64,000 bases of DNA from Membranipora membranacea (taxonomy: Eukaryota; Bryozoa; Gymnolaemata; Cheilostomatida; Membraniporidae), in NCBI GenBank assembly GCA_914767715.1, contig OU612072.1:20274001-20338000 (forward strand), written 5' to 3'. The notes beneath the pieces are model-generated. The model had not been told where the DNA came from. It saw only the letters and a program-made list of their open reading frames with translations, and did not search any database. Both the position numbers and the translations under genes were made by a program. Shown here in pieces: positions 11,302-49,860 of the stretch. Each line of letters begins with the position of its first letter. Positions within the stretch are counted from its first letter, which is position 1.

Positions 11302-14300
11302 TTACGGAGGTATCCTACTGATGACTACAATACTCAGAGTTGGATATCTGCTCTCTTTAACAAATCTGTCTGTCAGTCTCTGCTTCAGTTCATCCGGTAT
11401 TTCTGTGACTGTGCCATCAAATGTGACATCAGTAGACCAGGTTACTGTCAGAGTGTCATTCTTACAGCTCAGCTTAGCCTGAGAACCAACCTTAGGTCTG
11501 CAATCTGAAAACAAACAAACAATTTAATGTGATCGCGCTTGTATCTCTTACAAAGTTTCGCCTTTTGAAGCAGCCAAATTATCACCCCTCTGCGTTAAAA
11601 TCTGATTACAGCAGCCACGGAGCCAAATAACATCCACATCAGCTTCAAATTTTATTCACCTCGAACCAGTGCTCATTCAGAAAATTTTATCACTGGTTTG
11701 AGGTCTTATATATGCAGCTTATCATTAAACTGAATGTGTCAAATTGTCCCCCTATACTAAAAGGGTTATGAGGCATTTCTCATCATTTAGTTATTTTCTC
11801 AAATTATTCTCAACATACTTATATTGGACTTCAAATATAAGACTTGTGTGTTTACACACAGCCAGCCCTTAAAAGCGTTAGGGATGGCGATCGCCATCCC
11901 GAATGCTTTTAAGGGCTGGCTGTGTGTTTACATTGTACATTTATAGGAATTTATTTGTAACAAACCTAACTGCTCACCTTGTTGACATAATTCTCTTATC
12001 TGGTTGACATATCCATTAGCGAGGGTTGTTAGAGTAGATAGGGCCACCAGATCGGTCAGTACTGTACACTTTACGTAATCATACCTAGCAATGATATCGA
12101 CTCCTCTCACCAATAAGTAATCTACAATATTAATAAATATTCTTTAGAGTATAACTGGAGGCGTTATACATGGGCTTGGCAATTATCAGGCGCTCTTTTT
12201 GCTATATCCATTCATTAAACAAAAAATTGAAAGCCTTTTTCGATTCTGCCAAAAGAAAAATTGGCTGCGTGAAAAGGTTATAACTTTGGCACTTCAACAC
12301 TACGTAAGTGTTATATCTCAGTCTCTACCTTTGATTTCTACTTTGAGTGAACAGTTGGTATTTTTCCCGTTTATACGATACTTGTAGACTCCGACAGGTA
12401 GTTCTAGTGTATGAGTAGTGCCATCTAGTGAGAGGTCAAGCGCTGATAACCCAGTAGAAGCCGAGACAACTCCTCTGATTACTTCTGGGCACTCTTCTAG
12501 CCCATATTTTGTACCTGATAACGCAGTCATAGTAGTTGTTGTAGTAAACTTAAAATGCTAGCAGAAAGCTGAGTAGTAGAACGAGTATCAAAAATGGCAG
12601 CACAATCTCAAAGATGGTGTGGCTACATGCAACGAGAAACTATGGAGCTGAAATGATACCACAAATATAAATAGACTATCCAAGTAAAAATAAATACGGT
12701 TAGTAACGGAGTAGGGACCCGGGTGCTTGTGTGCTAAGTGTACGGGCTGAGGTCTTAGGCTCAAAGTAAATAATTGTAAATACTAACTTAAAAACCTCAT
12801 ATATGCTTATCAATAACCTATTTATATAAATACTCACCATTATTTATGACTATGATATTAACAGTGCAGTTGTCTCTTTTGATCACATGACTACCGACAG
12901 CATATCCAGATTGTACATCAGGAGTTATCTCCACAAACGCCCTCTCCTCAGCAGATGTCACATACAGTGTCATGTTACTGTCCTGACACTGGTTACCCAT
13001 TGTAGATCCTGCAGGATGTAAGAGATATTTAATATTTAGTTGTCGATACTAAACATTGATGAAGTTCAAATACTATCTGGTACAAATGAATGGAGGCAAA
13101 TTTAGGATTTGAAGGGGAGTACTTGTGCACCATGAAAGTTATTGATGATCGTATTTTTGCGGGTCCAGATCTTAAGATTATATTACTCCACTGGACTGTA
13201 ATAAGAAGCTAAACTTGATGACAAACTATTTATAGATATACTCACCATTATTTATTACCATAATGTTGAGAGTACAGTTGTCCCTGTAAACTACGTGAGT
13301 TCCAACTGCATATTCAGATTTTATTTGAGGAGTTATCTCCACAAACAATTTTTCCTCTTCAGATATTACATAGAATGTCATATTACTGTCCTGACAAAGT
13401 GTAGTTGTTGGTGTGGTTGTAGTTGGCGGTTTGGTAGTTGTTGGTGTGGTTGTAGTTGTTGGTTCGGTTGTAGTTGTCGGTTTGGTAGTTGTTGGTGTGG
13501 TTGTAGTTTTCTCTTTGGTAGTTGTTGGCGTAGTTGTAGTTGTTGGTTGGGTAGCTGTTGAAGTTGTAGTTGTCAGTTTGGTAGTTGTTGGTTTGGTAGT
13601 TGTTTGTGTGGTTGTAGTTGTTGGTTTGGTGGTTGTTGGTGTGGTTGTAGTTTTCTCTTTGGTAGTTGTTGGCGTGGTTGTATTTGTCGGTTTGGTGGTT
13701 GTTGGCGTGGTTGTAGTTGTCGGTTTGGTGGTTGTTGGTGTGGTTGTAGTTTTCTCTTTGGTAGTTGTTGGCGTGGTTGTAGTTGTTGGTTGGGTAGCTG
13801 TTGAAGTTGTAGTTGTCAGTTTGGTAGTTGTTGGTTTGGTAGTTGTTTGTGTGGTTGTAGTTGTTGGTTTGGTGGTTGTTGGTGTGGTTGTAGTTTTCTC
13901 TTTGGTAGTTGTTGGCGTGGTTGTATTTGTCGGTTTGGTGGTTGTTGGCGTGGTTGTAGTTGTCGGTTTGGTGGTTGTTGGTGTGGTTGTAGTTTTCTCT
14001 TTGGTAGTTGTTGGCGTGGTTGTAGTTGTTGGTTGGGTAGCTGTTGAAGTTGTAGTTGTCAGTTTGGTAGTTGTTGGTTTGGTAGTTGTTGGTGTTGTTG
14101 TAGTTGTTGGTTTGGTGGTTGTTGGCGTGGTTGCAGTTTTCTCTTTGGTAGCCGTTGGCGTGGTTGTAGTTGTTGGTTGGGTAGCTGTTGAAGTTGTAGT
14201 TGTCAGTTTGGTAGTTGTTGATTTGGTAGTTGTTGGTGTGGTTGTAGTTGTCTGTTTGGTGGTTGTTGGTGTGGTTGTAGTTTTCTCTTTGGTAGTTGTT

Positions 14301-16688
14301 GGCGTGGTTGTAGTTGTTGGTTGGGTAGCTGTTGAAGTTGTAGTTGTTGATGTGGTAGTCAGTTTTGGATCTACAAAATTAAAAAATAATTTTGTGAAGA
14401 GATATTTACATCCTTAGGTAATATAGACTGAATTTTGTGGCCATGAAAGGAAACTATAGTCTTTTTATTTATCAGTTATTTCTTCATGTGAGTGAAGGGA
14501 TGGCACTTTTATCCACGATCAAACAAGAGTATTATCTATAAAGTGATCTTCCATTCAGACAAATGCGCCATGTTAGAATGGGTGACTCTCTACCTGCCAG
14601 TAAGTTCAAGTTTGGGCACCCATTCATTATATATTTATATATATACCGTACAAACAGGTATTTTCTCTATTAAGCGCTATATCGCTCAAGAATAGGTGCA
14701 GTATTAAAATTAAAAATTCCACCTATTAATTCAACTTGAAATAAGGTACAAAATACTCCTTTTGTAATTCTATGTAGTGTACTCACACATGAACTGCTGG
14801 ATCTTTTTGTATTGTCCGACGTACAGAGAATTTTTAGTGATGAGCAGAGAGGTTGGGCGATACAAACATCCTGAGCAGAGATCCAGGGTGGTCACTCTGT
14901 CTGTGTTCAGGTCCACTAACCGGATCTTGTTATTGTACTGATCAGCCACGAGTAGAGTCTGATTACCTAAGAACACGAGGTCACATGGGTTGTAGAATAG
15001 AGAGTTTAGTAGAGTGCTGTCTGCGTAGCCTGAGGTCCCTGGTGACCCGGAGATCAGTGTTATCATCTTCTCTCTATATGTGATACGGTAGAGAGCGTGA
15101 TCCCATGTTGTGACATACAGATCCCCGTTGTCATCCTGTGTCAGGTGTGTGATAGACTGGAGTCGGTCGGACTTAACGAAAGTACCGACAGAGGCGGAGC
15201 TTACATTGACTGTCCTCACAGCTTTGTTATAGTAACCAGTGACGAGAAGCTGATCGACATCATTATTGTCTCTTATTACAGACCAGGGATCGGAGAACTG
15301 ACCGGGGCGACCGTCTGTGTATCCGCGAGACTGACACTGTCCACTGAAGACGGAGGTGATCCCTGTGACACGGTTAATATCTCTCAGACATTGATTATAT
15401 CGATCGGCTACAACTACATGCCTATCTGTGACCTGTGTGAATCCATAGATATAACCAAACCGAGCCTCAGATCCTCTCCCCTCTCTGTATCCTCTCTCAG
15501 CTGTGTTCCCGGCTATGGTCGTAGATGTTTTACCATCACTGGTCTTCAGTGAGTGCTTGTCAGTGTACAGTATGTGACCGGGTTTGAAGAGATCTTTTTC
15601 TAGGTGATAAACAGAGTGAGAGGTGGTGGTGAAGTTTGTAGCTGTAGATCTGTCTAATCTGTAAGATTAATATTGTTATGTAAATGGACGATGTTCGTTA
15701 ATTTGATCTTATTAACGCAGTAATTATTGAACAAAAAAACCACCGATATTGCAAATGCAATATTTCAAATTCATAATTTAAATGAAGTGTATTTTACGTA
15801 TTGTAAGTGTTCATGTGCTGGTGGGTGATTCAAATATATCAGAATTATGAATTTTTCCCAAAATTGATTCAAATTGATTCAAATGGATAGTTGTGTTTTC
15901 TATCAACCAATTAAATTTAGATGCAGGTTATGCACCAGAGACCATAATATATAATATTTTACATGCGGCTTTTGTTCACAGTAAATTTTTGTTATTTGGA
16001 GTTGTCTCATGTTATACACCATGAGGAGGCAATACACAAAATTTCAATTAAGCGACCTAAATTCAAAATCTTGAGTAAAACAGATATTTGCTTCAATTAA
16101 TCAACAAAAATGTTTGCAATGTATAAATTACAAAAAAGTAACAGCTTGTACCAAAATTAATGTGTAATATCACAAATCACAAGAAGGAATGAAACGATCA
16201 AATGATTAGTTCACTGTACATTGCCTACCCTGAATCTGATATTTTTACTAAAGGATATTCTAGCATAGAACTCAGAAGGCTTTCAAACCCCTATTTATCA
16301 CATCGATGGAAATTGACTCACCGATCAACTAGACACTGCGTATCCTGATCCATACACCACACAGTATTTAGTGTCACACAACATAACGCCTGTCAAAACG
16401 ATGATGGTGTTAATTAAGTTTGTTACAACAGAAATTAACAAGGTACTTTAGGTTAGGGGGGGGGAGAGACACCTCCCATATAAAGAGAATACTGATCCCC
16501 CATTGAGACCCTCTGCTCACTCATCATATAAGTAATTATGTCAGGGTTAAAGTATGTCATGCTTGTAATATTATGTACTATAACTACTTCTTTTTTTTCA
16601 GGATTATTACATAATATCAATTTTAAGGCTATAATTGAATTGCAATTCTCATTATACTTACAAGGAAAAGTGCCAGTCTCAGCTCCAT
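11302..16688 (-). CDS. Secreted NHL-propeller / mucin-like multidomain protein
   Basis: Eight minus-strand exons join in phase, all with GT-AG introns: 16688-16662, 16389-16322, 15658-14787, 14370-13246, 13008-12838, 12514-12329, 12121-11978 and 11504-11302 (stop TAA). The product is 931 residues. Residues 1-21 (MELRLALFLALCC...) form a signal peptide. About 40-322 is an NHL/YVTN-type beta-propeller, with blade motifs such as VVVADRYNQ, LYVTTWDHALYRI and LLVADQYNNKIRLVD. About 323-645 is Thr/Pro-rich (TTTPTTTK units), probably O-glycosylated. Two homologous ~55-residue modules follow (CQDSNMTFYV and CQDSNMTLYV), each with paired Cys. Then come a HYR-like stretch (CPEVIRG to CSLKVEIK), a short helical linker and a Cys-containing C-terminus. 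No membrane segment is visible, so secretion or matrix location is inferred. Residual doubt concerns only the ends and minor exons. Confidence 0.85.
11855..11926. repeat. 72-bp near-perfect palindrome in an intron
   Basis: Perfectly centred between 11,890 and 11,891 on GGCGATCGCC. The outer arms are CACACAGCCAGCCC and its complement, with mismatches only around 11,877-11,880. It lies in the last intron of the NHL/mucin gene. It may be a tiny foldback element or a transcript hairpin. Confidence 0.85.
13402..14370 (-). repeat. Coding Thr/Pro repeat with 243-bp higher-order unit
   Basis: The mucin-like exon is built of short units encoding TTTTTPTTTK and KEKTTTT. Above this sits a 243-bp (81-codon) unit: 13,604-13,804 and 13,847-14,047 are apparently identical, and more diverged partial units lie on the 3' side of the plus strand. 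The period is a multiple of three, so copy gain or loss keeps the frame. The long plus-strand frame (Val/Gly-rich) is a shadow. Confidence 0.9.
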
Positions 16689-17440: not shown

Positions 17441-19005
17441 TTATTATTAGCTATCTTTTAATCAATTGCATTGCATGGATCTTACGACATCAAACTATCT
17501 CAACCTAACATACTAGCGATAAGATTTTTGTAGTGTCTAACTTCTATCCTTTAATACATAATGCCGTTATCTTGAAGAAACAATTAATGATGAGATCATT
17601 TATGATTGATATCAAAGTGACGCAACTCAATCATGTGGAAGCTAGGAATATTGAATTTATTGACGCAATCTATACAAATACTGCTGATCTTGTGCTTATT
17701 ATTGGGAGGGCGTTATAGCTCAGCCCCTCCAATATTTAATCAACATCAACCCAGTGAATGTTGTGGATTCTTATTCTCAGTCACAACTAAACAACAAGAT
17801 GCTATCTAGAGATAACTTCTGACTCACTCTTCAGATATCAGATATCAAACCATATATCCATAGAATGCATATGTAAGGAAGGCAGGATTAAAGACATTGA
17901 AGGGTGCGAGGGATTGAATAGTCAATCAAGAATTGCCTCCCAATTGGACACAAATGATCCCTGAGCCACCGTTCGCCTGGCAGTTAATCTCACGCAGGGT
18001 AAACAATTACAATTTCTTCATAGACATGGCACGATGGGGCTGCTTAGAGAGCATGTTCCCGAAGCTATGGGTGAAATTCAATTTATAAGCAAACAGTTTA
18101 CTGAAACTGCGCAATCTAGCAGTATTCATGCTGCAGTTTTATGTGGCTAGTGCAAACTATATATAACCTGGTATCTTAACCAGAGAGCATACCTGCCATG
18201 TAAACCGACAGCAACTATGTGATACACAGTCATTCAGAAGAGCAGTTTCACTCTAGATTAATTTTGTATGGCTAGTCTGTTATTTTAAAAATTTATTCAA
18301 GGCTGCCGTTTGTCTCAACTATTAATAATATGTATGTTTTTACCAAATGACATAGTATTAGGAAAAGCAGCTAATTTTGTATGACGGCTACCCGCGCATA
18401 ATTAGGGAGCTTGATCATTTTTAGTAATCTGTGGCATCCACGGGTTGTTAAAAGACATGAAAGCTCAATAAGAAAAAAAGAACTTTATGTTTCTGTCAAA
18501 AAGACAGTCATCTTAGCATTGCTTACAATTATGCCAAGCCTCGGTGAATAATTAGAAGATGATGGATCGATAACTTTAAGTATTTGTAACAGGCCCCATG
18601 ATTTATTTACAAGGCAGCCAGGGTTGTGAAAAAACTATCGGTATAGGCGCTCACCTCTCAACGCGTCTGAAGTGGATGGTCAAGGGCTCAAGTACCGCTG
18701 CTAACCAAGAGTGAGTGACTTTCTCTTGCTAGAAGGTAAACCAGTTGTGTAAGGGTTGTGCCACATCAACCCTCCAATGCCATACAAACAGGACCAGCGG
18801 TAAGATGAGTGATAGACTTAGGGACTCTGCTTGCAGAGTACGGAAGTAGCTAAAGCTAAAACACCGTTCCTCTTACTCTACTGTTTAAAATTTGCCTAGC
18901 ACCCAGCCGGCACAACTGCATCTAAACTATGTTGGAAAGATGTTAACCTCAGAGGCTGAACTACGTCTGCCTAATGTGGCAATCTGTCACGCTAGTATAT
19001 GTCGG
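17441..19005. other. Intergenic with a possible tRNA-derived relic
   Basis: No gene seen. At about 18,640-18,720 a tRNA-like order appears ('ggtataggcgctcacc' then GGGCTCAAGTACC, similar to a Leu/Ser-type B box), probably a SINE remnant. The rest is unstructured AT-rich DNA. Confidence 0.4.
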
Positions 19006-19006
19006 A

Positions 19007-19174
19007 ATGGTGCATTCCAATAGATATTGTAACGATACATAAACTGCCTCTTTTACACATCTATGGTGCATTCCAATAGATATTGTAACGATACATAAAC
19101 TGCCTCTTTTACACATCTATGGTGTATTCCAATAGATATTGCAACGATACATAAACTGCCCCTGTTACACATCT
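19007..19174. repeat. Three tandem 56-bp units
   Basis: Units at 19,007-19,062, 19,063-19,118 and 19,119-19,174. The first two are identical; the third differs at a few bases. The unit starts ATGGTGCATTCC and ends TTACACATCT. Confidence 0.97.
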
Positions 19175-20030
19175 AAATGGAAGCTTGTACATGTATTTCT
19201 TGTGACTAAACAGCATAGTTCCGATGTCATTCCAGTATGGAATCCATTTGATTCAAACATCTTGCAGATCACTTGTAACTATTGAAACTGTGTATATTTA
19301 GATATTATTAACACCCAATTACATACAGCCTTCCAAACTACTATAATCTAGTCCATTGGATCTATTTACCCTCAGCTTGCAAGACAGACTGACTTCAGCA
19401 ACCAAATGAGAAAGAACCTAAATTCAAAATGATGTGCTCAAATTGGAACAGCTAGTGCTGAGGACTCTTTGTTGTGTATGCGTTAAAGAGTCAATTGTAC
19501 TGGATGTAAACAAATAGTTTGTCAGTGAGCACACAACTTCTTATGTAAGATGAAATTTACTTTTAAGGGTGATAAATGATAAATATATTTTGTTATGAAA
19601 TGAGTTGGGTGTGTATATACGAATATCTACACATGAAAGAAACGAGTAAAATAAATATTAATGATGAAGCCATGCAACTGATATTACAAAAAAAAGGTAA
19701 ATGGAGAAAAAAAGGAAATCTTGTATAATATGTTAGAAATATACCTAAGTTTGTGGATACTTTTATACATAAAAAAACACACTTACCTAGAAGTTCAAGA
19801 AAAGCAGGACTGACTAGATATAAAAAATTCATGTGACAACACTGAGTTTGTAAAAAAGTTATTATATCAGAATGATAATATAAAACGATGCCAAAGTGCT
19901 GAAACAGAACGAGGAAAAATTACAAAAAAAACTGTTGGAGGGAGTTAAATATACAATATTTATTGATCTAATAAGCGTTCCGAGATCAGATTTAAAAGGC
20001 ACGTGAGGTAGAGAGTCGAGTTGTAGAGTG
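19175..20030. other. No gene; 3' flank of the DUF4806-like gene
   Basis: AT-rich DNA without a supportable frame. It should contain the 3' UTR and poly(A) site of the minus-strand gene to the right. A CACTG string at about 19,840 could be a CACTA-type terminus, but I found no matching inverse. Confidence 0.4.
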
Positions 20031-20034
20031 ATGA

Positions 20035-23000
20035 TTAGTTGATTTTTACCTGAACGTTACTTCTCTCCCTCTGCTCCCGGAACAGTCTTTTTTCTTGCGT
20101 CTGCCTAAAAAATTGAATAAAAAAAATATAAATATTTATAAGCATAAGAGAATTTACTTCACAACACGCCAATGAAGCAAGACTGATGCAGATAAGTGTG
20201 ACCAAGCAGGGACTAAACATATATGCATATTCATAAAGTGACACCTAACAGGGACAGAGTCCTATCTTGAGATTACAACGCCGGCAAATACAACAACTTA
20301 AAAGAAGAGTAAGCAAGATGAAGTAGAAAACAGCTCAAGTGATGGCAGGCCGGTGCGTGCCAGATCATGATGATAGATTAATTATACAACGATGCTTCTT
20401 ATTAATTATGAGTCCATAGGAAACATTGATTTCCAGACATTTCCCCCTTACTATTTGAATGAAACATTGTATATTACCTTAGCCACCAGTCCAGGCTGGT
20501 TTCTCAGGTGGTCTTGTACTCGCTTGTAGACATCCGCCTCAGACACCTTGAAGAACTGTACAAGGGCATCTGAAAAATTACGAAAAAAGTTCATAAATTC
20601 ATCATAATACTGAAACCTCATGAGCTGAAAGGATGAAATAGTATTGGTTATAACTATTCTAAATATTGTTCGAAAAGAAGTAGGTTGGATATCAGAAATA
20701 ACCAGCAACAACCGACTTCAGCTCAGACCGAGGAGTTGCTCAGATGAAGGCACCTTAAAAATCTTGTGCTGATTGTGTTTATTATTATGACAGAAGTACT
20801 GCTAAACATATCTATCATGAGATTTGTCTTCATCTGTATAACGTTCAAGATCATGTAGCTTACCTTTTATTATTGAGTATAACGTAGTAGTCCCAAAGGC
20901 AGCCTTTCCCTGGTTGCCCTTCCCCTCCATATTCATCGATGATCTAGCTCGTATCGATATTAGTTTACTCATAACCAGACTGACTCCCTTTTGGAGGTTG
21001 CAACCTCCAACCGTTAGCAGCTGGAGAAGCTGAAAAGAAAGCAAGATATTTTTGCAAACCCATCTGACTTATGTTTCAAGACATGGGCAACTCGGCATTG
21101 TCATATTTCCATGCCAATAACCCAGTGTAGACCACTATTGAATTTCCAGTCCGGACTGTAAACCAGCCTATTATATTATATAGTTTAATTTCGGGACATA
21201 AACACCCATTTTTTTTAGAGAGTTGATGACAGTAGTTCACTTTGATCTGTTTGTATGTTCTAAATGAGTGAGTTAAAGTCTGTTTTAAAAGCATCGGGTT
21301 GAAATGGACATGGAATGCAGCAATGACATCTCACCAGCTCCTGCCTTTCCTCTGGGGAGGGGTCAAAACTGAAGATCTCCTCTGTGGTGTTGAAGAATGG
21401 TACACCCGAGGCTGCGCCGGCCTGTATGTTGCGCTCAGCTTGCAACTGGAGCATCATTGTCGTCATTCTGAGCATCTGCTTGCCCAGCGTAAAAATACCT
21501 TCTACAAGAGAACATGGATTGTGATAATGCAAAATGATAACAATAATATGTCAGTGTACATGTAGACTCTGTGATTTCAATCACCGTCATTATCTTTTCT
21601 TGGATCAAAAGTGACTAATGATTAATTCTGAAAAAGATGTAATGATCACAAATTTTACATTCGCCACAGTTACACGAATCTTTGAATAAAATATCAGGTC
21701 ATTCCAAGCATCTGAAAGTTTGATTATGCGAGTTTAGCCGTGCAAACAAAATCACGTCAGACAGCATAAGGATAAATTTTCTATTTGTAGTTGCTACCAT
21801 CCAAATTAACAATGCAACCTACTGATCTGCTTAATGGCAAACATGACAGTTGTTGCCAACAATCGATTCCGAAATGTCAACTTGTCTGGTTTTCTTACTA
21901 TGAATTGTGTCTAGTTTTTTTGTCACATCACCGTCCAGAGGTGGAGGTAGGTGCTGAGAGAGTGATGGTGTCAGAAGATCTTCATCAATCGAAGTTCTTA
22001 GTGCGGAAGAAGGCAGAGAAGGAGTCCTCATCGGAGATGACAAGCTGGGTGTTTTACTTGTGCTAGCTTTTGGGGTGCAGCTTGAGGGCTTAGGAGCGTC
22101 TGACTTGTTCTTTGGGGTCTTAGGAGGTTTGGGTAAACGTTGAACGAGCGAGCTTGACTCTTCAGAATCGGTCTGAAAATCTAGAGAAAGCAAAACAGAA
22201 TAAATTGGAGGTTATGACAAAGTAAATGTATTTCACAGGCACAAGCAGAGCTGGGGTCTCATATGCAGGTAAGCTGTGGCTGAAGGTTGAGTAAAATAGA
22301 TAACTTTCTTAAATCATGTATAGCTAAAAAGAGAGCAACTGTATTTCAGGAGTGATCCCCTCATTGATCTCAATAAGGCCATTCCCAATGTTGGCTATTA
22401 TCATGATATAAAAATACCATAAGCTGACAGTTGCGCAGCAGTCCATATGGCTCAACAGAAACATCATTGCTTATTGAACCGTAGGAAAATGAAAATAAAA
22501 AGCCTTGCTAACCATCGTCTGCCTAGTTGGGAAGATAAACAGATATGCTTACATACCTTTGGCAAAATGCTGGGAGTACTTTTGGTTCGGTTTCCTGGCC
22601 CTCTTCCTATCCTGTTTAGGACTGTCTTCCGCTTCCTCTGCAATCTCATCTGAATCTGAGCCTGGGTCAGATGTTTCATCATATTCGTCGCAAGCCTTTT
22701 TCTCATCTAAAAATGGATCAATATGTGATTATGTCGAAAAACAGCCACTTGAAAACAATATCTACACGATCTATCCGGAAAAGTTACATTACAGCAAAAA
22801 GTAGGTGATAGGAAGCATAGCACCTTAGGTATAAATTAATCACGTATCCAATACATTTTTGGACTGTGTTTAACGCTCATTTTGAAATGCTATACTGCAC
22901 ATGAATTTGCATGCCACCATGAAATCAAGACTTCAATTAAATTTAAGAAACAAGAATCACAAAATTATACAATTTGCTGAACCTACCTGACTGGTGTTTA

Positions 23001-25602
23001 ATCTTGACAAGAGGATATGAGCCCCATCCTTTCGAGGGAACCTTTAGCGATTCTATAGCCGTGGATGAGTTTTTCAGTGGCCATCTCACTGTCTGAGCTT
23101 GCATGTCCAACCACACAGTTGGAATCGTACACTCTGATTCTTGGTTGTTGTCCTCCATCATTACCGCCAATGTCCATTTTCCTGGCTGGAAAAAGTAAAT
23201 GGAAAAACGAGAAAACTCATGACAAGTGAATTCACTCATCTTAGCCAGGGACTATGACTGCTGATATTTTAAGACACATAATTTCGAGCCTACAGCAATG
23301 CAGCAGTCGATGTCATTTTAATGCAAAAAATTCATAACATTAAGGATATATATTGCATATATCAAAATTTTCCAAAAAGTTAATACTTTAATATGTGAGG
23401 GTAGGTAATAGTGTCTATGGTTATAATAAGATATTGTATTGGGATGTTTTCTTGAACCGCAAATTTGTCGAGCCTGTTCATATTATCAAATTATTATTAT
23501 CTCCTGTGTGGTTATGCAGCAACCCGCTGATGTAAATTGTAGTGTATCTTATCAGTATCATTTAAAAGTTTGACAAATTGTTACAAACACTCATCTAGAC
23601 ATTGTGATGAACAGGGATAAGAGTCAAATCTATATCATTCTCCAAAGATAAACACACCATTTTCCTGGCAATATCTTCTCGCCTTACAATCGTTGTTGGG
23701 AGATCTACAAACAATGATTTTCTAAATTTTCCTATACCCAAATCCAGCGAGTCACATGGAACCGTAAACAAACTGCAAAACCGCTGCTTCGGAACTGTTC
23801 GCACTGTCAAAGTATTGGCAGATTGATCAACTATGAAACAAACTTCTCCAGATCGAAGCCTGACAACACCATTGCGATAATCAGCAGTCAATTTCATACA
23901 AATTTCTTTTGTTCCCACAAGCTGATGTCGCTCTGATATTCTCTTAGAAACCTGTGCAATCGGATTGTTTTTATTTCGGACTAACCGTTTCATCTGGCCC
24001 AAATAATTCTCATAAGGAAATGCAGAGATGGCGTTCAAACTAGTACCGAAGTTTCTGCAATCATCTACAAGGTGGATCAGTGAGTGGACATTGTAACTTG
24101 CAAATGTGTCGCCATACAAATGCTTTGCCTCCTTCACAAAAGAAACTAGTAACTGATGAGAAAAATCCAAGTAGTAGTTTCTCATGCTATCATCGCTTTC
24201 TAAAAGAATGGACATAGCCACACACAGGCACATAAAATGATGGTAATACGATTGTGGTAAAGCCTTTCTTAAAACAACAACCCCAGTGTATAGAATGAAC
24301 TGCCGCCACTCAGTCGCTTTCCACCTGTCAGAAAGCTGTAGTGATCGAGGCTGTCGGGCAAACTCAGCAGGCATCTGACCATGAAGTTGTGCCAATGAAG
24401 AAGATATCTGAGACAGTTGTACATGGGAAAGGCGGGCTAGGGATGTTTTTTCTATTTTCCAAAACTTAACTAGTCGTCGCATTACGCCGAGGCAGACCAA
24501 ATGCATATAGTCTAGGGGAAATCCAGTTACGCACGGAAAGCTGATACCTGACAATGGACTGACACCCTTCTGATGACCATCTTCATACCTGAGGCTGGCA
24601 AAGTCATCATCTGTCCTCAGTGGTGCGTTGAAGTCATCAAAACAAACTCTACCAGATTTCCATTTACCTTTAGCACAGCATCTCTCACACCCATCAATGC
24701 CATTGTGACCAACAATTGATTTGAGAAGGGCACGAGCGGGAGCATCACAGATGACACTACGTAATGTCATAGAATAAGTAGTCTCATCGTGGACAAAGCC
24801 TGTAGAGAGTTGAGTGTATTCCTCGAGAAAGTCATTCATAAACTCAGCGATATCTGTTGGCTTCCCAGCACCATAATACAAGGCAACAACAACAGGGCTA
24901 GAACCATTAACAGACATGAGAATCGGCCAAAAGCCCTCAGGACTCGATTTATAGAGCGGCAGACCGTCGACGTTTATCTGCACACAATAACTACGCGTGC
25001 GTGGGTTCAACAGTTTGGTATTTATCATAGTGCCAATCAGAATGCCAAAGTATGAGTACTCCCCACCCAGTTTTTTGGTAACTGCTACAGTCCTTGCTGT
25101 GTGCAGCAGAGCCCTCATGTCTTTTGGGATCAATGGAAAGATTGTGTTGAGTATTCTTAGAATACCATTCCCTTGGTCACGAGTGACACGCTGCTGTGAA
25201 GCCCACTCAGCAACTTCATCCCGAATTGCAAGCTGTTGATGCTCACTAAAACCAGATTGGAAGTCATGAAACATTTGTTCAAACCCTTGACTTGATGACT
25301 GATCCCCTAAGAAGTCATCAAAAACAAGATCACTACCAACATCAGAGAAATTTGGGTCTTCAGCGGTGTCAGTAGCAGAACTGAGCAATTGCATCTCTAC
25401 AATACTGTCATCATTATCACAAATGTGATCAAGACGATTTGAAACATCAGCAGTGACCAAATCAGAATAAAGGTTTCCAGCAAAAAAGCTATTCACTTCT
25501 TCATCAAGTTCAGTAGATGCAAACAATGCAGTGGCAGCTGCATCATAAGATCGCAATGTTTTAATTTTTTTTCGGCTTTGTGACGACATGGTCACTTACC
25601 AT
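20035..25602 (-). CDS. DUF4806-like partner protein of a CACTA-like transposon
   Basis: Eight minus-strand segments join in phase: 25602-25600 (the ATG alone), 23185-22987, 22706-22557, 22180-21899, 21501-21335, 21029-20864, 20569-20478 and 20100-20035. An alternative last acceptor four bases upstream (20,104) gives a stop at 20,057. The product is about 368-374 residues. It starts MPGKWTLAVMMEDN with conserved W/P-rich residues to about 66. A highly acidic stretch follows (DEYDETSDPGSDSDE), then a basic KRARKP block, a Ser/Pro-rich linker, and a C-terminal region like DUF4806 (FDPSPEERQEL, LTVGGCNL, GNQGKAAFG). Such proteins accompany transposases in several animals; a DNA- or chromatin-binding role is inferred. 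An upstream non-coding exon may end near 28,884 (CACTG followed by GTGAGT). Its first coding intron contains the transposase. Confidence 0.75.
23595..25589 (-). CDS. CACTA/EnSpm-like (tnp2-type) transposase
   Basis: One uninterrupted frame of 664 codons from ATG at 25,589; the GTG six bases upstream is unlikely as a start. After an acidic, low-complexity N-terminus (~120 residues), the RNase H-like core carries an Asp in NVDGLPLYKS (about 208), an Asp in CDAPARALL (about 282), a CERCC cluster (about 301-305), DYMHLVCLG (about 360) and a Glu in SAFPYENYLG (about 527). This order fits the D-D-E plus C/D-H arrangement of CACTA transposases. RWKATEWRQF and YNVHSLIHL are further family landmarks. 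It would cut and join transposon ends in the nucleus. It lies entirely within an intron of the DUF4806-like gene on the same strand. No internal stop or frameshift is seen, so it may be active or domesticated. I could not identify the element's ends. Confidence 0.85.
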   Translation of the reverse strand: MSSQSRKKIKTLRSYDAAATALFASTELDEEVNSFFAGNLYSDLVTADVSNRLDHICDNDDSIVEMQLLSSATDTAEDPNFSDVGSDLVFDDFLGDQSSSQGFEQMFHDFQSGFSEHQQLAIRDEVAEWASQQRVTRDQGNGILRILNTIFPLIPKDMRALLHTARTVAVTKKLGGEYSYFGILIGTMINTKLLNPRTRSYCVQINVDGLPLYKSSPEGFWPILMSVNGSSPVVVALYYGAGKPTDIAEFMNDFLEEYTQLSTGFVHDETTYSMTLRSVICDAPARALLKSIVGHNGIDGCERCCAKGKWKSGRVCFDDFNAPLRTDDDFASLRYEDGHQKGVSPLSGISFPCVTGFPLDYMHLVCLGVMRRLVKFWKIEKTSLARLSHVQLSQISSSLAQLHGQMPAEFARQPRSLQLSDRWKATEWRQFILYTGVVVLRKALPQSYYHHFMCLCVAMSILLESDDSMRNYYLDFSHQLLVSFVKEAKHLYGDTFASYNVHSLIHLVDDCRNFGTSLNAISAFPYENYLGQMKRLVRNKNNPIAQVSKRISERHQLVGTKEICMKLTADYRNGVVRLRSGEVCFIVDQSANTLTVRTVPKQRFCSLFTVPCDSLDLGIGKFRKSLFVDLPTTIVRREDIARKMVCLSLENDIDLTLIPVHHNV

Positions 25603-25672
25603 TATCGTTGGTTGGATCACGACGCTTGATAACAGGACGCCGGTACACAGCAACCACAGCAAACAGTTCAAT
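25600..25672 (-). promoter_or_regulatory. Exon carrying ATG against a splice donor
   Basis: Acceptor TTTCTAG precedes this 73-nt exon, and the exon ends AATG|GTAAGT, so the ATG is its final codon. Spliced, it joins CCAGGAAAATGG and starts the DUF4806-like protein. Unspliced, the same ATG opens only a short frame (about 13 codons) that overlaps the transposase ATG at 25,589. Splicing could therefore choose between the two proteins. Confidence 0.6.
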
Positions 25673-28600
25673 CTAGAAACAAAATGAATTAGAATATTAT
25701 GGCTCAAGAAAGTGTAAAATTAGTAGCATGTTAGCTCTACTGAGCAAGCTAATAAAACAACAGTCAGCGGAATTCAAAGACAAGCTTTCACATAAATTTC
25801 ACATAGCTTCTAAGGCAGTATGAAATATAAAGGTTCACGGACAAAGCTTGATATTGAAGTTCAATTCTTAGACTTTCTTCCCTCATATTGGGCAAAGTCA
25901 GGCTGTGAATATTGGACAGGTCTAGATATGTGGTGGGAGATGTCATGGGAAAGACTAGGCAAACTTCAACTTGTAGGCACCGAGAGGGTAGCTGCTGCAT
26001 TGTTTATGTCTCAATAAATTATAATCTCAACAAAGATGATGGGATAAGTTAGAGTCGCAACTGACAAGTGAGTGAGTTTGCCAGTGTCAGTTGTAATACA
26101 AAACAAACAATAATTGCAGCCCAAGGCACCCTCAGGTGTATTAATTCTATAGCACCAAGTGAGTGAATTATATCAGTGTCAGTTCTCTATACAATGTGAG
26201 CAAACAAACAACATACCAGTCTTGTATCAAATTTGTAAATATCAACAGCAGTATGAGTATATCCTATGGTGCTCAAATACAAACAAACAGCCAACTTCTA
26301 CACAAGTTTTCAGGGGCAACAATATCTAACAATATATAATGTATTAGGGTCCAATGCTATAACAGGAGCACAAATCTGTTTACTTTTTTTCAATAATGCC
26401 CTCTATGGAAAGGCAGAATGGCCTAAGAATTGGAAGGTAACTGAAGTTAATGCCTCAACCACTCAGATTGTGTACAACAACATAGTTCACAATGACAATA
26501 CCCAGCAACAGTGAATGCATTTACCGAGACAATTTTCTGACTGAACATCGTGGAGACAAGTTCAAAACCAACAAATAATTGTCACCACCAGTACTCAGGT
26601 CTGATCCTAAAGAAATGCATAACTTTGCCAAGCCAATGAATTTAGTCAATTGTATCAGTATGGACAATCTGTACCAGTGTCGAGAATGTGAGCATGCCTG
26701 ACATTTCATGGATTCTGCAAGTTATCATAGCTGTTTCATCACTTAAGCTTGAAAGAGGTGGTCAGGGCCTGAACTATTTGCAGTAGATTGAGGAAGCACC
26801 AATGACTTTTGAGTCTTCCAAACTTCGATCTCAAGTTGAAAGGAGAACATAGGATGTAACCATTGATTTATGTTCAAATGCATTGTATTCAGTGGGATGT
26901 GAAATCCTCTAAACGACTTTGTATATGACTTTGTATATTCGCACTCTCAGCAACATGAGGAAAATTCTACCAATAAGACAGACTTTTAGGAGCATATTAA
27001 GGAACAATTATAATAATGCAGATTTTAAGTATGCAGAAATTTCTGATTTCTTACCATAGATTATTACAAATTTGTTCAATGGTTTTTTTGAGGACAGTGA
27101 AAGTAAGAACGGGTGCTGCGCGTTTAATTGTCCACTTTATATTGAAATTACCAGAGTTAGCATAGCACAGCATACCAACAGCCTTGAGTCTCGGTCAGAG
27201 ATGGATTCAAACAATAAATTAAAGACTGGCAGCCGGAAAGTGATCTATTGAGCAACGAGGGCTGGCAGCAATACCACTTTGACTTGCGGCGATTTCAATG
27301 CTGATCTTAATTGTACTACATTGGAAAACCTTGGACATACCAAACTGAAACTTCAAATCTTACAACCTTAAAATAGTGTGTTCTGAATATAAATAGCTGT
27401 TACGACGAATGGGGCCAGCAGCATACTTTTTCATCGCAGATCACTTTTCCACAGGCTACTTGTTAATCATTAAACAAACAAAAATTCAGCGCCAATAGCT
27501 GGTACTGTATCGATGAAACAAAGTCACTAAGTCTGTAATTTGACATAAATAGCTAGGGGAGACTGGACACCGCTCATATGGCTAGCAAAAACTTACAGTG
27601 GAAAAGATCAGCAAACCTCGTAATTGGTCGTGACTTTGGCTTATGTGATATCCCTGATTGTACCAGAAAAAACTATGTGGTGAAATTTGCCAAATTAAAT
27701 GGCTATCAGTGCAAAAATTTAATTTGCATGCACAGCCCTAATATTCTGAATGAGAAGTCAATGATTCAATCACTAGCCATGCACAACCAGATTATTCAAT
27801 AATTAAGTAAGACAACAGCTGATGCTATTTTTGTACACTTTCCACACTTACAGTATATAATAACTCTACGCCTGATACCTTGTTACCTTAAACTATTAGT
27901 TTCCATTTGGACGCCTATCACTGTATTTTAATTCATTGCAAACAGACTTCACCGAGATCCATTAAAACAAGCTCCCTCCATCATTTATAATTGAAAGATT
28001 ATGGCCCCACCAGGGCTCTCAACCACTCAGATTTAGCCCGAGTTACTCAGGTTTTTGGGCTCAACTCAGGGGATTTGAGATTATTAGCTAAAAACTCAGA
28101 TTTTGCCTCATATTCATCAAAGTTTGGGAATTCCTCTGGGTGTGGTCTAGTTGTATGATTATAAAGAAACAATTTAATGTTATGATATATGAAATACAAT
28201 AACCAGGATGAATTTTACAGTGAATCTATATCAATGATCTGCTCACAACTCTAAAAAAAAACAGTATCATTCAGGACTAAATTGCTCTCTAGGCTTTGGC
28301 AGCCGGACCCATTGAGGAAGCTAACAGAGCTCTAAAACTCTAAGCCGTTTGTGCACAAAATATCGGCAAAACTCAGGTTTTGGATTCTCCCAGGTTGATA
28401 GCCCTGGGCCCCACACAAACAAAGAGTCAAAAAATGTGATGAGACCAGTGAATAAAGTCTTGATCATAAAAATCTAGCTTGGTCAAAATAAGAGTCATTA
28501 AGATTATAACGCTGTTAGGGCCTAGGCCTACTCTACCCAAAGCAAGGCAGCCTCATATTGTATTGACAAGCTTATCTTGGCAAATTGTTACTTATACCAA

Positions 28601-28880
28601 CTCAAAAAATGTGAGTTACTAGTTACCATTAAGAATGAATGTGATGATTGACTTGACATACAGATCAAGTTACTGCTGAACAGGAATTGTCCTGGACAAA
28701 TTTCCATTTAGATAAGCCACCTACTACATCATACTTACCTAACTACTATTAGTACTAAGCTGCAATTATCTAGCGTAGCTAAGCTAAGCCATACAACATA
28801 CTAAAAAAAATGATGATGATGTTGATGAAACCTAAAGCATAAATGATAAATCTAATAGCACAATATTTTCGTGTTACTCA
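25673..28880 (-). other. Probable 5' intron with decayed coding remnants
   Basis: No intact gene. On the minus strand, 26,709-26,266 reads with only a few stops and has protein-like segments (TFSTLVQIVHTD, GKVMHFFRIRPEY, VAGYCHCEL, SEWLRH), suggesting the relic of a larger transposon-type protein. A short direct duplication ('aagtgagtga...cagtgtcagtt') lies at 26,068 and 26,158. At 27,990-28,410 there is a dispersed repeat ('ccactcagatttagcc') related to 55,030-55,160. Confidence 0.4.
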
Positions 28881-28898
28881 CCAGTGATAAGAAGGTAG

Positions 28899-29462
28899 GT
28901 ACACCAGTTCTAGTAGAGACTCACTGAGACTAAGAGAGAGAGCTAGTACAGTACAAGTTGCTAATATAGTAATAATCCACTGAACTTCAAGTGAGATATA
29001 TTTATGGTTCACTTGGATCTAGTCTAGTGTCAAGACAGATGTAGTGGATGAGTATGGAAGCAATGTCACTGTCTGTGTGTCATAGACTACACGATTACTG
29101 CTGCATATAAAACCAGTGGAAATGAGTGATAGTTACTCCTAGTCCTTGGTGAAAGTCTTGCTGTGTGAATGTGTAGGAGTAGTACACCAGTTCTAGCTAG
29201 TAGAGACTCACTGAGACTAAGAGAGAGAGAGCTAGTACAGTACTGTACAAGTTGCTAATATATATAGTAATAATCCACTGAACTTCAAGTGAGATATATT
29301 TATGGTTCACTTGGATCTAGTCTTGTGTCAAGACAGATGTAGTGGATGAGTATGGAAGCAATGTGTCATAGACTACACGATTACTGCTGCATGCAAAACC
29401 AGTTGAGTGATAGTTACTCCTTGGTGAAAGTCTTGCTGTGTGAATGTGTATGAGTAGTGTCA
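28899..29462 (-). repeat. 283-bp direct duplication, possible promoter/5' end
   Basis: 28,899-29,181 and 29,182-29,462 are close tandem copies ('gtacaccagttctag' to 'tgtgtgaatgtgta'). On the minus strand a non-coding exon could start in the left copy and end at about 28,884 with donor GTGAGT, splicing to 25,672. The duplication would then be the promoter or subterminal region of the transposon unit. Confidence 0.6.
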
Positions 29463-32290
29463 GTTCGAGTGGAAAACAAAAACAGTTATAACTCAATTGA
29501 GTTACATACATCTTAATTTAAACTATGCGCTATTTTACTAACTCACTCTGATTGGTCAACAAGGGCTTTGATCGTGGGGACAACTCCTATCATTGGAAAG
29601 TAAAATACTACATTGAATAGAATTGCCACAGACATCGACATCAAATGGTTTTGGGACCACATACGTTTTGGTAGCTATTGGACAAATTTGATATTGGTCT
29701 TTTCTATTTAACTGATTCAGACTGCTAAACATGATCGACCAAGCTTGGGGTTGATATACATATAGGCAGTATATATAACCACCACCTGCACCATAGGATT
29801 ATAGGTTAGAACCACATCGTGACAAGAGGTGTTCAGTTTAGTGAGTGATAAGCCATTACCACCACTCTAGCTAAACTGTTGGGTTGTACAGCAGAGTAGT
29901 AGTACTGTAGGTGGAGTAGATGTGTTTTCAGGTCAGTTTCCATATCGGCCTAACTATGTTGGTTGTTACACATCTATTATATATCTATAAGAGATAGTAT
30001 TTTCGATGTAAATCGTCTAACTTATCACCCATTAAGACCCGAAATTTGGACTGAAAAGTAGAGGCATTTTCAATACATTTTATATATTGATAAAACTGTG
30101 TCGTTGTTTATATGTGTTTTGGGCATCTAAACCATGCATATATTTCAATATATAATGTCCAACACGATAACGAGCCCAATGCAATGTTGGAATCATGTTG
30201 CCGCATTCTGTGTGCCGACTGGGCAGCTGCCTTCTGGTTTTCAAAAACAAGACATAGTTGTCTATGTCAATAATTAGTTTACTAATTTGTAAGGTAACAA
30301 GTAATCATTAGTACGACTTATCCCGGTGAAAGCGACATTAACTATGAATCTCTAACTTCATGATATTGAATACGTCATTTGCTTCCTTTCGATTAAAATT
30401 TTGGCCAATGTCAACTTGAATTTTTTGACAGTTTTTGTTAACCACAACACTAGCACGCAATTACCGGTTTTGATCATGGATGTATTTTGGTTTATATAAC
30501 AAGTATTTAAGATAGTATTACTCCAGGGTAATAAGGTAACTGGTTCGGAATTGCCCTCTCACGTTAACACCTTCAAAAATGAAGAGTTGCCCTCTCTCTT
30601 CGAATTTTCACAGGCTTTGATATGATTGGCCGATTACATCTTACTTTTTTCTTATTGGCCTGTTCAATAACTTCATACTGATTACAATATCTGTGTTGGG
30701 GAACACTGAGTTAGTTATCGATATTGCTAGTAGTCAACTTTCTGAACAGCAGTCAGACTCAGTGGCACCAATCAGTTACTTCACAGACACATAAGACCAC
30801 GATGAAGAGATGATGAGCCAACTCAGCTTCACAAGAAGAAGAAGAATGAAATTAGAACAGCTGTGAATGGACTTGATTGAATCAATTTGTTGTAGCTCTC
30901 AGGTAAATAAATGTTATTTAGTATTTATTTGGTACACTACTATAACTATTCTACTACTCAGTTGTGAGTGAAAAATGAGTAGACTAACTAAGAAGTCTAG
31001 CTAGTAACTGTTAGTTACTATCACTACTAGTAGCTTTCTGTAGTTTGCCAATGGTACCAGTCCAATGTACAGTGCAGTGTAATATCAAGTAAGGAGAAGG
31101 ACTCATAAGAGTTGTAAGAGGGGGGGGGGAAGGCTCATACAAGTCCAAGGAGTTAACTCCTTACTCCTCGCTTTGTTGTTTTTTGGTGGTGGCATGTTTA
31201 GGTGGGCAACTCTCGTGCAACTAATTGTCTAGAACTGTTATTGCTAATCTACTATGGCTACATGTAGGCCTACATACTTTACATTGTAAGGAAATGCCCC
31301 CTCTCTTTACTACAACTACAGCCTATGTAGGCTGGGTCTTGTATTTGTATAAAGTGTGTGCATAGGCTTTGCCTCGGCGCAACTGACGGATCATTATTGC
31401 TTTATGTCAACCATTCCCAACTGTCTGAGACTGGTGGGGTCACCCTTAAATACAAACAGCAAAACTATATACATATTAGTATACACTTTATTTACTGATC
31501 AAGCATGCGCATATAAGACCAAGTGGTACATCATCATCTAGTTTAGTAGGCGAGACCTGCTTTTAGCTTCGTTCGAGAATTGGCCACTTATCAATTGAAC
31601 TATGCTCACTCTTGTGTGAACTATTTGCGAACAAATTTATCTAAGGAGCGAGGATATTGAGCATTTAAGTTGTAATGATCTTTTGGTTTACAAAGCACAG
31701 CTCATGCTAATTGAAATATTCCCTGGTCTATAATGTAATAAAGAATATACCAACCCCGATCACCAGAGGTAGGAAACCAGTGCAGACCTTGCCTTTTGCC
31801 AATGGTATTGAATTCAAATGATTTGTTGGCTGTACAGAGTCTCAACTGCGTCACAGTGGTCATTTCATTATAATAAGCAGTGATCGGGGAGGGGGGCGGA
31901 TTGCATATAATATTACATGTGTGGGCTCTTTGAGTTGCAAGCATGTACTTCGCCTTAATTCAGGGTCAACCACTGACAACCATTGGTTATAGTGGTCTGT
32001 AGTTGGAGAGTAGAGAAATTGGTTACTGAGAGAAACTAGACCATTGCCAGCTTGCACACAATTGCAAAAGTTTCCCAAATGTAAATCTTCATCAATAGAA
32101 TGGTGTATTCAAGTGTTGTAGAGGTACTAGCTCTCTAGAGTATAACGCTGGTTTCATTATTCGTCTTGTTAATTTGGGAAAAAAGCAGATAGGCCTAGAT
32201 ACAAGAAATGACTCCTTTTGATTGCAGATTTTTTTGTATTTTAGTCTACATTGTAAAGCAACACAGACCGCAGAATAGTACTGAGAACAG
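29463..32290. other. Intergenic, no gene seen
   Basis: A splice-donor-like 'ctctcag|gtaaat' at about 30,902 after a short ORF-poor block could end an untranslated first exon of the weak plus-strand gene that follows. Perfect palindrome AAGGAGTTAACTCCTT near 31,148. Confidence 0.35.
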
Positions 32291-37875: not shown

Positions 37876-40132
37876 GTGTCCTCCATCTTGAACTCTCCAA
37901 AACCTAAGCAAAACTTCAGTCTTCACTCAGTAAAATCGATTCCATGTGCTATGGATGATCTTGAAGATATAGAGCTCGAACACTACATGTTTCTCATTGT
38001 TGTGGGGGCATATTTAGCTCTTCAGAGGAACCACAGGGAGCACTGGGTTCACCCTTTGAACCAGACTAGACAGGAAACATCAGTGATCAACAGGTTTCAG
38101 CAATTAAGACAGTATCCTGATAGGTTCCATGCACAGTACATGATGACACCACACACCTTTGACTATCTGCTTGCTATAGTTGGACCAAGGATCAGGAGAC
38201 AGGATACTGTGATGAGGAAGGCTATTGACCCTGAAACTAGACTCTGTGTGACTCTGCATTTTCTTGCTACTGGGATGAATTTCAATAGCCTAGCATACAT
38301 ATATGCTCTAGGTAGAAAGACTGTGTCAGACATGGTGTATGACTGCTGTGAGGCACTGTGGGATATGCTATGTCCAATCTACTTGAAACCTCCCACCAAC
38401 CATAATGAATGGAGATCTATCTCACAGAGGTATGTCCTCTCATTGACCTGAGAGAAATAGGGACAGTGAAGTGAGAGTGAGGTTGAGGTTTAGGTTCTGA
38501 AGTGATTTTTATTCATGTATTAATGACTGACTGAGATCATCTCAGATTGATTTCAAATGAACACCTGGTAAGAACCCAACTCCCAATTAAGATGCCCTAT
38601 CCAAGGAGGAAAATGATCTATGTATGTATGCACTAACTATCTCGTCAGTAGCCTAATATATAATGCTGCTCTCCTCTATTCATTCGCAGGTTTCTAGATG
38701 TGTGGAATTTTCCGAATTGTGTTGGAGCGATTGATGGTAAACACATCCACATGCGGGCACCTGATAACACAGGGACTTTATATTTTAATTATAAGAAGTC
38801 CTTCTCGATAAACCTAATGGCGATAGCTGGAGCAGACTACCGCTTCATCATGGTAGATATTGGCCAGACTGGAAGCTGCAGTGACGGTGGGGTGTGGGAA
38901 AGATCTCAATTTGGACAAGCATGGAAGAGAGGTATGTACACAATAATTTTTTCACTGGTAATGCTTGTGCTCTGATGTATGTTGCCAATTACTGCATGAA
39001 AATAGAAATCCTCCCTTGAATAAGATTAGACTACTTCCCTCTTGTGTATGATAAGATACCCTTGCACCTTCAATATAATATGATTCTCCCTTTTCGCCCT
39101 AAATGAACTGATAATCCCCCTCCCTTTATAAATTTCTTCCCTATCAATCTGTCACCCCCCCCCCCCCCCACATTAATGATATGATACCCAATTTCCTATC
39201 CATAAGAACTTAATAAGATTCCCTCGCCTTCACAAATATTATTATTCCTATGTATGATGATCTATGTCCCTTGCCCCTCTCCTCCATCAATGATTAGTCT
39301 CAACTCCTCTATATATATTGCCCCCTTTGCTATATATCACTGTTCACAGAGATATTTTGTTTCTCAGGTGAGGTGAATGTTCCACCACCAATATCACTGC
39401 CGAATACAGAGGGTCATGAGGAGGAGTATGTTCTCATCGCAGACGAGGCTTTTCCGCTGCAGACTAATTTGTTGAGGCCATTCGCACGACGAGACCAGGA
39501 AAATGACATGGTAAAGAAGAAGTTCAACTATAGACTATCAAGAGCTCGCAGAGTGGTTGAGAACACCTTTGGTAAGTAATATAAAATTCAAATCCCTGTT
39601 ATTCGAATTAGAGGCAGCATCAATGGCAGTAAATAGCTTCATTTTATGTGCCTGCAAGTCTGAGAATTTTTGAGACATCATGGGTAGATATTAGAATATG
39701 ATATTATAATTATTTATCAAACGTCACTGTTCTCAATAATTATGGTGTTGGAGTTATCTTCGTTGTCAGTTTATGTTATTCACTGCCATTTTTACAGGAA
39801 TATTATCAGCTAGATGGCGGGTTCTATTTACACCCCTTGACGCAGATGGAAAGAAAGCAGCTTCAATCGTTCAAGCCTGCTGTGTGCTCCACAACATGCT
39901 CTGCTCGCTATCTGACAATGCTTATGTACCACCTGGTTATGCGGATCAGCCTCTCCCTAATGGTGAAGTTGTGGAAGGTTTATGGAGACAAGGTGATGGT
40001 ATGCCAGGACTCAACGCAGTTGCCAGAGGCCATGCAGCAGCAGCATCAAATGTCAGAACCCGTTTTTCACAATGGTTTAGTGGGCCAGGTGCGGTTGACT
40101 GGCAGGACGGGTATATTACAAGAATACGTTAG
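37876..40132 (+). CDS. HARBI1-like Harbinger transposase
   Basis: Four exons with GT-AG introns join in phase: 37,876-38,429, 38,690-38,931, 39,368-39,571 and 39,798-40,132. They encode 444 residues. It starts MSSILNSPKP; an alternative Met lies at residue 26. The nuclease core holds Asp200 in CVGAIDGKHI, Asp250 in GSCSDGGVW and Glu330 in RRVVENTFGIL, with the family landmark ADEAFPL at about 290-296. These are the DDE residues of DDE superfamily 4. The N-terminal third is helical (RFHAQYMMTPHTFDYLL, TLHFLATGMNF) as in HARBI1 proteins. A polyadenylation signal AATAAA lies near 40,286. It would act in the nucleus with the MADF partner. No break is seen, so the enzyme may be active. Confidence 0.93.
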
Positions 40133-48615: not shown

Positions 48616-49676
48616 GAAGCTAAAGTTAAGTTAAATACCAAAAAAGCAGTCTATACCATACCAGAAAAAAATATGCTCCGAGGGCTCTCCCACCAGAACT
48701 GATCAGCCTTGATGTTCCCCCGGTCTTATATGCACCGGAGGTCATCACTGTTGATAGGCATGGCCAAAAAACCGGAGATTGTATTTGCCCATCGATCACT
48801 TAAATTTGAAAATAAAAATGCAAATAAACTGACTTCTTGATAAGATGGCGATAGGATTTTGATTTTTGTCTGTTGAAAAATGATTTAATTATACATTGAT
48901 TATATATGACAGAGATTGAACCTCCAAAAAAGGCGGAGATGGGATGTCTGATAGCTGACAGTAGAGATAAAACTGAGATTGGTCTCTGATTTGAAGTGGT
49001 TGACACTGTCTGTTATCACTTGCTCCCATCTTCTTGGTTTTATTCTCTCTATCTGAAATCTCCTGAGCCTGAGCTGTGTGAACTTGAGATCTCACAGCTT
49101 CTGCTCCTCCTTCTCCTTGACTCTCCTGAGCCATCCAAGTAAGCTGTGAAATTATCTCACATGTTTTCATGAAATCATTTTTATAACTTCCTAATGTACA
49201 CAAAATATCTGTCCTAAAGTGTCCTTCCATGTGATCCATTCTAACTAGGGTGGGCAGTGCATGGATGTATGAAAATAGTAGGGCAAAAGGTGTAATTTCT
49301 GTACCAAGTATATCAAATCTAAGAACGCCTTGATATGGACAATATCACCAAGTGCGCCGAGAAGCTTTCCAAAGCAGATACTGCCAAACACAGATTGAAA
49401 ACCAAATCCCTCAGAATGGTGCACCCATCAACGCACCGAACCCTTTAATCTCCTTTGACATGCTACTATCCGGTTGCTCTACGTCTCTGTGCCACTGCAT
49501 TAATCTTCGTAGAGACTGTTTTAGATCACAGGCTATCCTTATTTTCTATTATTATATATATGTACACTACAAATAGATTTTATGCAACAGTTTAGACATC
49601 AGAATTTTTTAAAACAAATTTTACTAGAGGCAAACCAGTTTATTACTTCTCAATCGCCCCTTGTGATAATAAAGGT

Positions 49677-49860
49677 CTGTACATACATACATACATACAT
49701 ACATACATACATACATACATACATACATACATACATACATACATACATACATACATACATACATACATACATACATACATACATACATACATACATACAT
49801 ACATACATACATACATACATACATACATACATACATACACACACATACACACACATACAT
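49677..49860. repeat. (TACA)n microsatellite in copy B
   Basis: Same position in the repeat as the 1,484-2,006 array but about one third as long. Near-perfect units. Confidence 0.98.

Follow-up and report, generated by a model that had tools for sequence, protein, structure and literature searches.

The closest described counterpart of the locus reported here is maize En/Spm. In the available parts of the published accounts, the ORF of tnpD sits within the intron-1 region of tnpA, and alternative splicing yields the transcripts of both (PMC2613891, PMC1636069), with the mRNA of the partner about 100-fold more abundant than that of tnpD (PMC2613891). Among animal elements, extracts of PMC1636069 describe for SmTRC1 alternatively spliced mRNAs and a short protein without a transposase domain. 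The same extracts suggest a CCC TIR core for animal TRC, with a 2-bp TSD, give Transposase_21 as the shared domain, and report the TIR CCCAGTCAAC for the A. aegypti TRC, a 9.2-kb element. A layout of CxxC, HxxxH and DDE residues is described for EnSpm, Mirage, Chapaev, Transib and RAG1 (PMC12730594, in part). VAChT is a single-exon ORF in the first intron of another gene of related function, ChAT (PMC3053374, in part).

The window (the whole 64,000-nt stretch of Membranipora membranacea DNA that was analysed) contains what is quite likely a full-length animal TRC-type CACTA element, in which one transcription unit would be put to two uses through removal or retention of an intron (Table 1). 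The likeness to En/Spm lies in a transposase ORF in intron 1 of a partner, which in En/Spm is DNA-binding; En/Spm differs in being a plant element with CACTA termini, and the comparison is one of gene plan. With SmTRC1 and other animal TRC elements it shares the CCC TIR core, the 2-bp TSD and, on our provisional filing, the animal CACTA branch, but SmTRC1, whose proteins are PrA and PrB, is 4.5 kb long and is likened by description. VAChT and ChAT, unlike the genes of this element, are neuronal host genes with no transposon. The likeness to RAG1/Transib concerns the predicted transposase fold and the arrangement of CxxC, HxxxH and DDE residues. The initial annotation knew of no description of such a locus. 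This stands for the start-codon donor, of which no description in a CACTA/EnSpm element was found in the open-licence literature as far as its available text extends; the nested plan, however, is known from En/Spm and the splicing from SmTRC1. What is new is a donor placed on the start codon and conserved there, with a second, out-of-frame ATG close by; new too is a partner in which Pfam shows no DUF4806 match but which appears to contain a weak BEN-like stretch. Through an arrangement this compact, animal CACTA transposons may produce a helper yet keep the dose of transposase low. It also raises the question of whether nesting in an intron, as in McClintock's Spm, is older than the divergence of plant and animal elements.

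Table 1. Features of the element in the window, and the start-codon junction in four lineages of copies (a slash marks the exon-intron border).
Feature	Position	Strand	Basis
Whole transposon of 11,322 bp; animal TRC type of the CACTA/EnSpm superfamily (provisional)	18902..30223	-	alignment with C7 copy, TIR, TSD
TSD TG, 5' side	30224..30225	.	flank letters
5' TIR CCCAGTCGGCACA, 13 bp	30211..30223	-	terminus reading
Pair of direct copies, about 280 bp each, putative promoter/leader region; common to C7 copy	28899..29458	-	repeat in alignment
Candidate exon-1 donor GTGAGT, after the direct copies	28882/28881	-	read from sequence only
Leader exon, 73 nt; last codon is the partner ATG (25602-25600)	25600..25672	-	sequence reading, ATG/donor in other lineages
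Out-of-frame ORF from partner ATG if intron retained, 13 codons + stop; overlaps transposase ATG (25589-25587)	25561..25602	-	
Phase-0 intron, 2,414 nt, GTAAGT...TTTTTCCAG; contains transposase ORF	23186..25599	-	sequence, acceptors in other copies
Transposase, 664 aa + stop; D208, D282, C301xxC304, H502xxxH506, E527	23595..25589	-	ORF, homologues, structure model
Partner exon 2, codon 2 onward	22987..23185	-	splice model, genome matches
Partner exon 3	22557..22706	-	splice model, genome matches
Partner exon 4	21899..22180	-	splice model, genome matches
Partner exon 5	21335..21501	-	splice model, genome matches
Partner exon 6, includes part of putative BEN-like stretch	20864..21029	-	splice model, genome matches, profile search
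Partner exon 7	20478..20569	-	splice model, genome matches
Partner exon 8, with stop codon ending at 20057	20057..20104	-	splice model
Subterminal tandem repeat, 56-bp period, near 3' end	19007..19175	-	repeat analysis
3' TIR, inverted, CCCAGCCGGCACA; 12/13 matching 5' TIR	18902..18914	-	terminus reading
TSD TG, 3' side	18900..18901	.	flank letters
Junction, window and C7a	ATG/GTAAGTGACC ATG		
Junction, C3	ATG/GTAAGTGATC ATG		
Junction, C2	ATG/GTAAGTTACA ATG		
Junction, C5b	ATG/GTGAGCAAAA ATG		

The borders of the element were read from an alignment with a copy on contig C7 (97.4% over 1,905 columns and 98.6% over 9,363 columns), which spans 30226 to 18901 of the window; similarity ceases at either end. 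The TSD reads TG on both sides of the element in the window and TA on both sides of the C7 copy; it is thus of 2 bp in both copies for which both ends were read. A single pair of TIRs, flanked by a TSD, encloses the leader, the transposase and the partner. Thus, both genes are cargo of one mobile element. Their intron placement alone would also suit a host gene with a transposon inserted in its intron, but the TIRs enclose both genes, which recur together in diverged copies; such co-mobilised copies contradict this origin, and we regard it as extremely improbable. Two motifs, CACATCTA and ACACATCT, each have five occurrences in the terminal 500 bp at the two ends and none inside the element. 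No claim is made for them as subterminal motifs, because three of the five occurrences sit in one tandem repeat.

Recurrence of the gene pair was surveyed in the same genome. In our clustering, 47 partner matches fall into 16 loci, and at 11 of these a transposase match lies upstream on the same strand, no more than 5 kb away. Of the five without one, three were read: the locus at C3:33.95 Mb, which was rejected as a transposase-free case since it is truncated on the 5' side, and two that have none in 4.1 and 1.4 kb. Conversely, 46 transposase matches form 24 loci in our clustering, and 13 of these lack a partner match in the genome search, among them C5b and C9, where the partner was located by targeted search. 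The loci C7b and C5c (C7:14.05 Mb, C5:7.79 Mb) are 98.9% identical over 10.8 kb, with a transposase 38% identical, an apparently spliced transposase 5' end and no detected partner. At C6:12.47-12.66 Mb, about 180 kb of sequence holds a cluster of decayed copies of this family, seen as several damaged pieces of transposase and partner.

The transposase has 1242 homologues at E<=0.001 among 7988 scored candidates; the named ones among the best 120 of these are mainly from mussels, starfish and a fish. An alignment of 20 proteins (that of the window with 19 of these 120) shows no change at any of the seven motif residues (D208, D282, C301, C304, H502, H506 and E527), and E527 is probably the catalytic E. 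The AlphaFold model (mean pLDDT 80.8, pTM 0.74) has 38 PDB structure matches at E<=0.001, all of them chains of the RAG1/2 complex (36) or HzTransib (2), with TM-scores of 0.28-0.43 on the query and 9-12% identity. The predicted structure thus points to a RAG1/Transib-like fold, at modest TM-scores. The TSD and TIRs of RAG1/Transib differ from those of this element. A transposase sequence profile found no relevant match among PDB sequences. Pfam hmmscan at E<=10 returned only DUF4218 (E 3.7e-4, below its cut-off) and no Transposase_21 (PF02992); the relatives P0002 and P0038 likewise match only DUF4218 below cut-off, and P0100 has no Pfam match.

We provisionally file the element as CACTA/EnSpm, animal TRC branch, by its termini, motifs and fold; the missing Transposase_21 match tells against a simple assignment. 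C(2)C and H(3-4)H motifs lie between the second D and the E, and the TIR starts with CCC. A plant-type CACTA element was rejected, as the TIR does not start with CACTA.

The junction itself is largely as the initial annotation had it. On the minus strand, a 73-nt exon (acceptor TTTCTAG) ends in an ATG (ATG1) set directly on a GTAAGT donor, GTAAGTGACC; splicing to 23185 in phase 0, where exon 2 starts CCAGGAAAATGG, opens a 368-aa partner frame; and the retained intron holds the full 664-codon transposase. One figure needs correction. The transposase was said to start 13 nt past the donor, but 10 nt separate the junction from the transposase start (ATG2), and 13 nt is the distance from ATG to ATG. 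The acceptor TTTTTCCAG is identical in copies C5a and C7a, and equivalents were read in C3, C5b and C9.

The string ATGGTRAG occurs seven times in the window against 5.94 expected. At this chance frequency a single instance proves nothing, and it is conservation across lineages that makes the junction real. The 5' part was inspected in 14 of the transposase loci and was readable in nine (unreadable in C7b, C5c, C2:6.34 Mb, C5:3.86 Mb and C1). The nine represent five lineages: four loci of the window type, two of the C3 type, C2, C5b and C9, with amino acid identities to the window transposase of 63% (C3), 58-59% (C2), 48% (C5b) and 49% (C9). ATG1 is intact in eight of the nine (GTG in C6, of the C3 type), as is the donor GT (GC in C9, ATG/GCAAGT). 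ATG2 lies at +13 in six loci and at +35 in C9, and is lost in C5a and C9b (window type), so that the 13-nt distance is found in four of the five lineages, all but C9. In ungapped comparison between the five lineages anchored at ATG1, identity is 87% (78/90) over the ATG and six donor bases, and 27% (98/360) in the 36 nt upstream. Leader exon lengths are 73, 91, 57, 41 and 52 nt, their 5' ends taken from acceptors read by eye. The partner exon follows the junction in phase 0 in all four lineages where it was located (window, C3, C5b, C9); the C9 junction, read across a frameshift, is the weakest, C5b carries a stop further on, and for C2 the 6 kb retrieved showed no partner exon. Judged by this sequence comparison, the ATG/donor junction is not a product of chance, and is conserved across five lineages while the leader has diverged.

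In-frame stops precede ATG1 in C3, C2 and C5b. Thus, ATG1 is the true start in these lineages. In the window, C7a, C5a and C9, no in-frame stop interrupts the exon ahead of ATG1, and the C3 leader exon has an additional upstream ATG.

We propose that when the intron is spliced out, the mRNA would begin its coding at ATG1 and yield the small partner protein. Retention would leave an mRNA carrying the DDE transposase, with its start at ATG2, 13 nt downstream, which ribosomes might reach by bypassing the out-of-frame ATG1 or by restarting after its short ORF. With a consensus donor on ATG1, the partner would be made commonly and the transposase only rarely. We infer a single promoter, this product ratio and leaky initiation; control of the switch by tissue, which the initial annotation gave as an example, would be conjecture. 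With the intron retained, the ATG1 ORF runs for 8-13 codons in all five lineages and ends just after the transposase ATG, or in C9 on it; retention alone therefore need not give much transposase. An A at -3 with a G at +4 makes a good start-codon context. ATG1 has this A and, unspliced, this G in the window, C3 and C9, so that retained RNA may give little transposase there; C2 and C5b are without the A. In yeast reporters, out-of-frame AUGs compete when up to about 17 nt apart (PMC9743702, in part), so a 13-nt spacing would probably let some ribosomes use ATG2. The spacing of ATG1 and ATG2 is, however, not fixed, as C9 shows.

The choice could also lie between splicing and early 3'-end formation, with the transposase mRNA ending in the intron by polyadenylation. 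ATTAAA is present at 23392 and 23322, between the transposase stop and the acceptor, and once in the C3 copy, but the three such stretches checked contain no AATAAA and that of C5b no ATTAAA. Moreover, hexamers of this kind are expected in AT-rich DNA. We consider this route rather unlikely. A promoter of the transposase's own, for example in the leader region, would make the nesting a matter of compact packing without a switch, and the nested mammalian VAChT/ChAT pair does use multiple promoters together with alternative splicing (PMC3053374, in part). Against it, ATG1/donor and ATG2 lie only 10 nt apart and stay together in four lineages, and a transcription start between the two ATGs would leave almost no leader; a separate promoter thus seems improbable.

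The start-codon intron may be an ordinary one, with ATG2 close by for no other reason than the early start of the ORF in the intron. Phase-0 introns right after the ATG are over-represented in eukaryotes (PMC1626468, in part), ATGGTRAG is at chance frequency in the window, and the spacing differs in C9, as it probably does in P0006 and P0007. The recurrence of the 13-nt spacing in four lineages is not explained by this alone, though the lineages share an ancestor, and we hold an ordinary intron to be plausible, though less likely than not. More speculatively, and more likely wrong than right, we suggest a conserved bifunctional start module, ATG/GTRAG N5 ATG, in which 16 nt would combine the starts of partner and transposase with the 5' splice site. 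If so, U1 recognition and the choice of start by ribosomes would act on the same letters and set the transposase dose, and the gene plan of En/Spm and animal TRC would be an ancestral CACTA trait, or a striking convergence with an unrelated (BEN-like) partner.

Contig scans confirmed no relatives with flanking DNA; evidence from beyond this genome thus consists of protein N-termini. Two of the 120 listed transposases have an in-frame M-V-S ahead of the usual start: P0007 begins MVSKM, and P0006 includes MVSYNSIIQTM. The protein letters suggest ATG spacings of +12 in P0007 and +33 in P0006, and both N-termini may fit the same start module.

The partner had been called DUF4806-like, a name that finds no Pfam DUF4806 support at E<=10 in the spliced protein or its pieces. 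DUF4806 (PF16064) was not found in this genome, and 14 control genomes are equally silent, making this a weak test for a domain split over exons. A Hydra table showed no more on DUF4806 than counts. No partner homologues were found at E<=0.001 among 2844 candidates, and C3-type partner exons used as query matched two short fragments. Compared with four other copies, the partner of the window copy is 42-48% identical in its C-terminal third. Between window and C3, dN is 0.57 for the partner (245 codons) and 0.28 for the transposase (642 codons), with third positions changed most and dS saturated or incomputable in most blocks.

Profiles of two and of five partner copies match PDB chains of BANP weakly (E 0.65-1.2), in a part that we take to be the BEN domain. 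Unrelated chains outrank BANP in both: three in the first (two designed proteins, with no stretch passing alone, and PbaA) and one, an ATP synthase chain, in the second. Pfam BEN occurs at one place in this genome, away from partner loci, and at none in the 14 controls. The partner may contain a weak BEN-like stretch, and our guess is that it could be a DNA-binding helper with a TNPA-like role.

Elsewhere in the window, ORFs at 37876-40132 and 41393-41731 look like fragments of a Harbinger-type transposase, with a second protein close by. ORFs at 746-1303 and 48889-49239 are similar in sequence and are probably copies of a single repeat; close to each is a long simple repeat (1447-2073 and 49582-49887) that is open in several frames. 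The 334-codon open frame at 13413-14417 is a valine-rich repeat and probably no gene.
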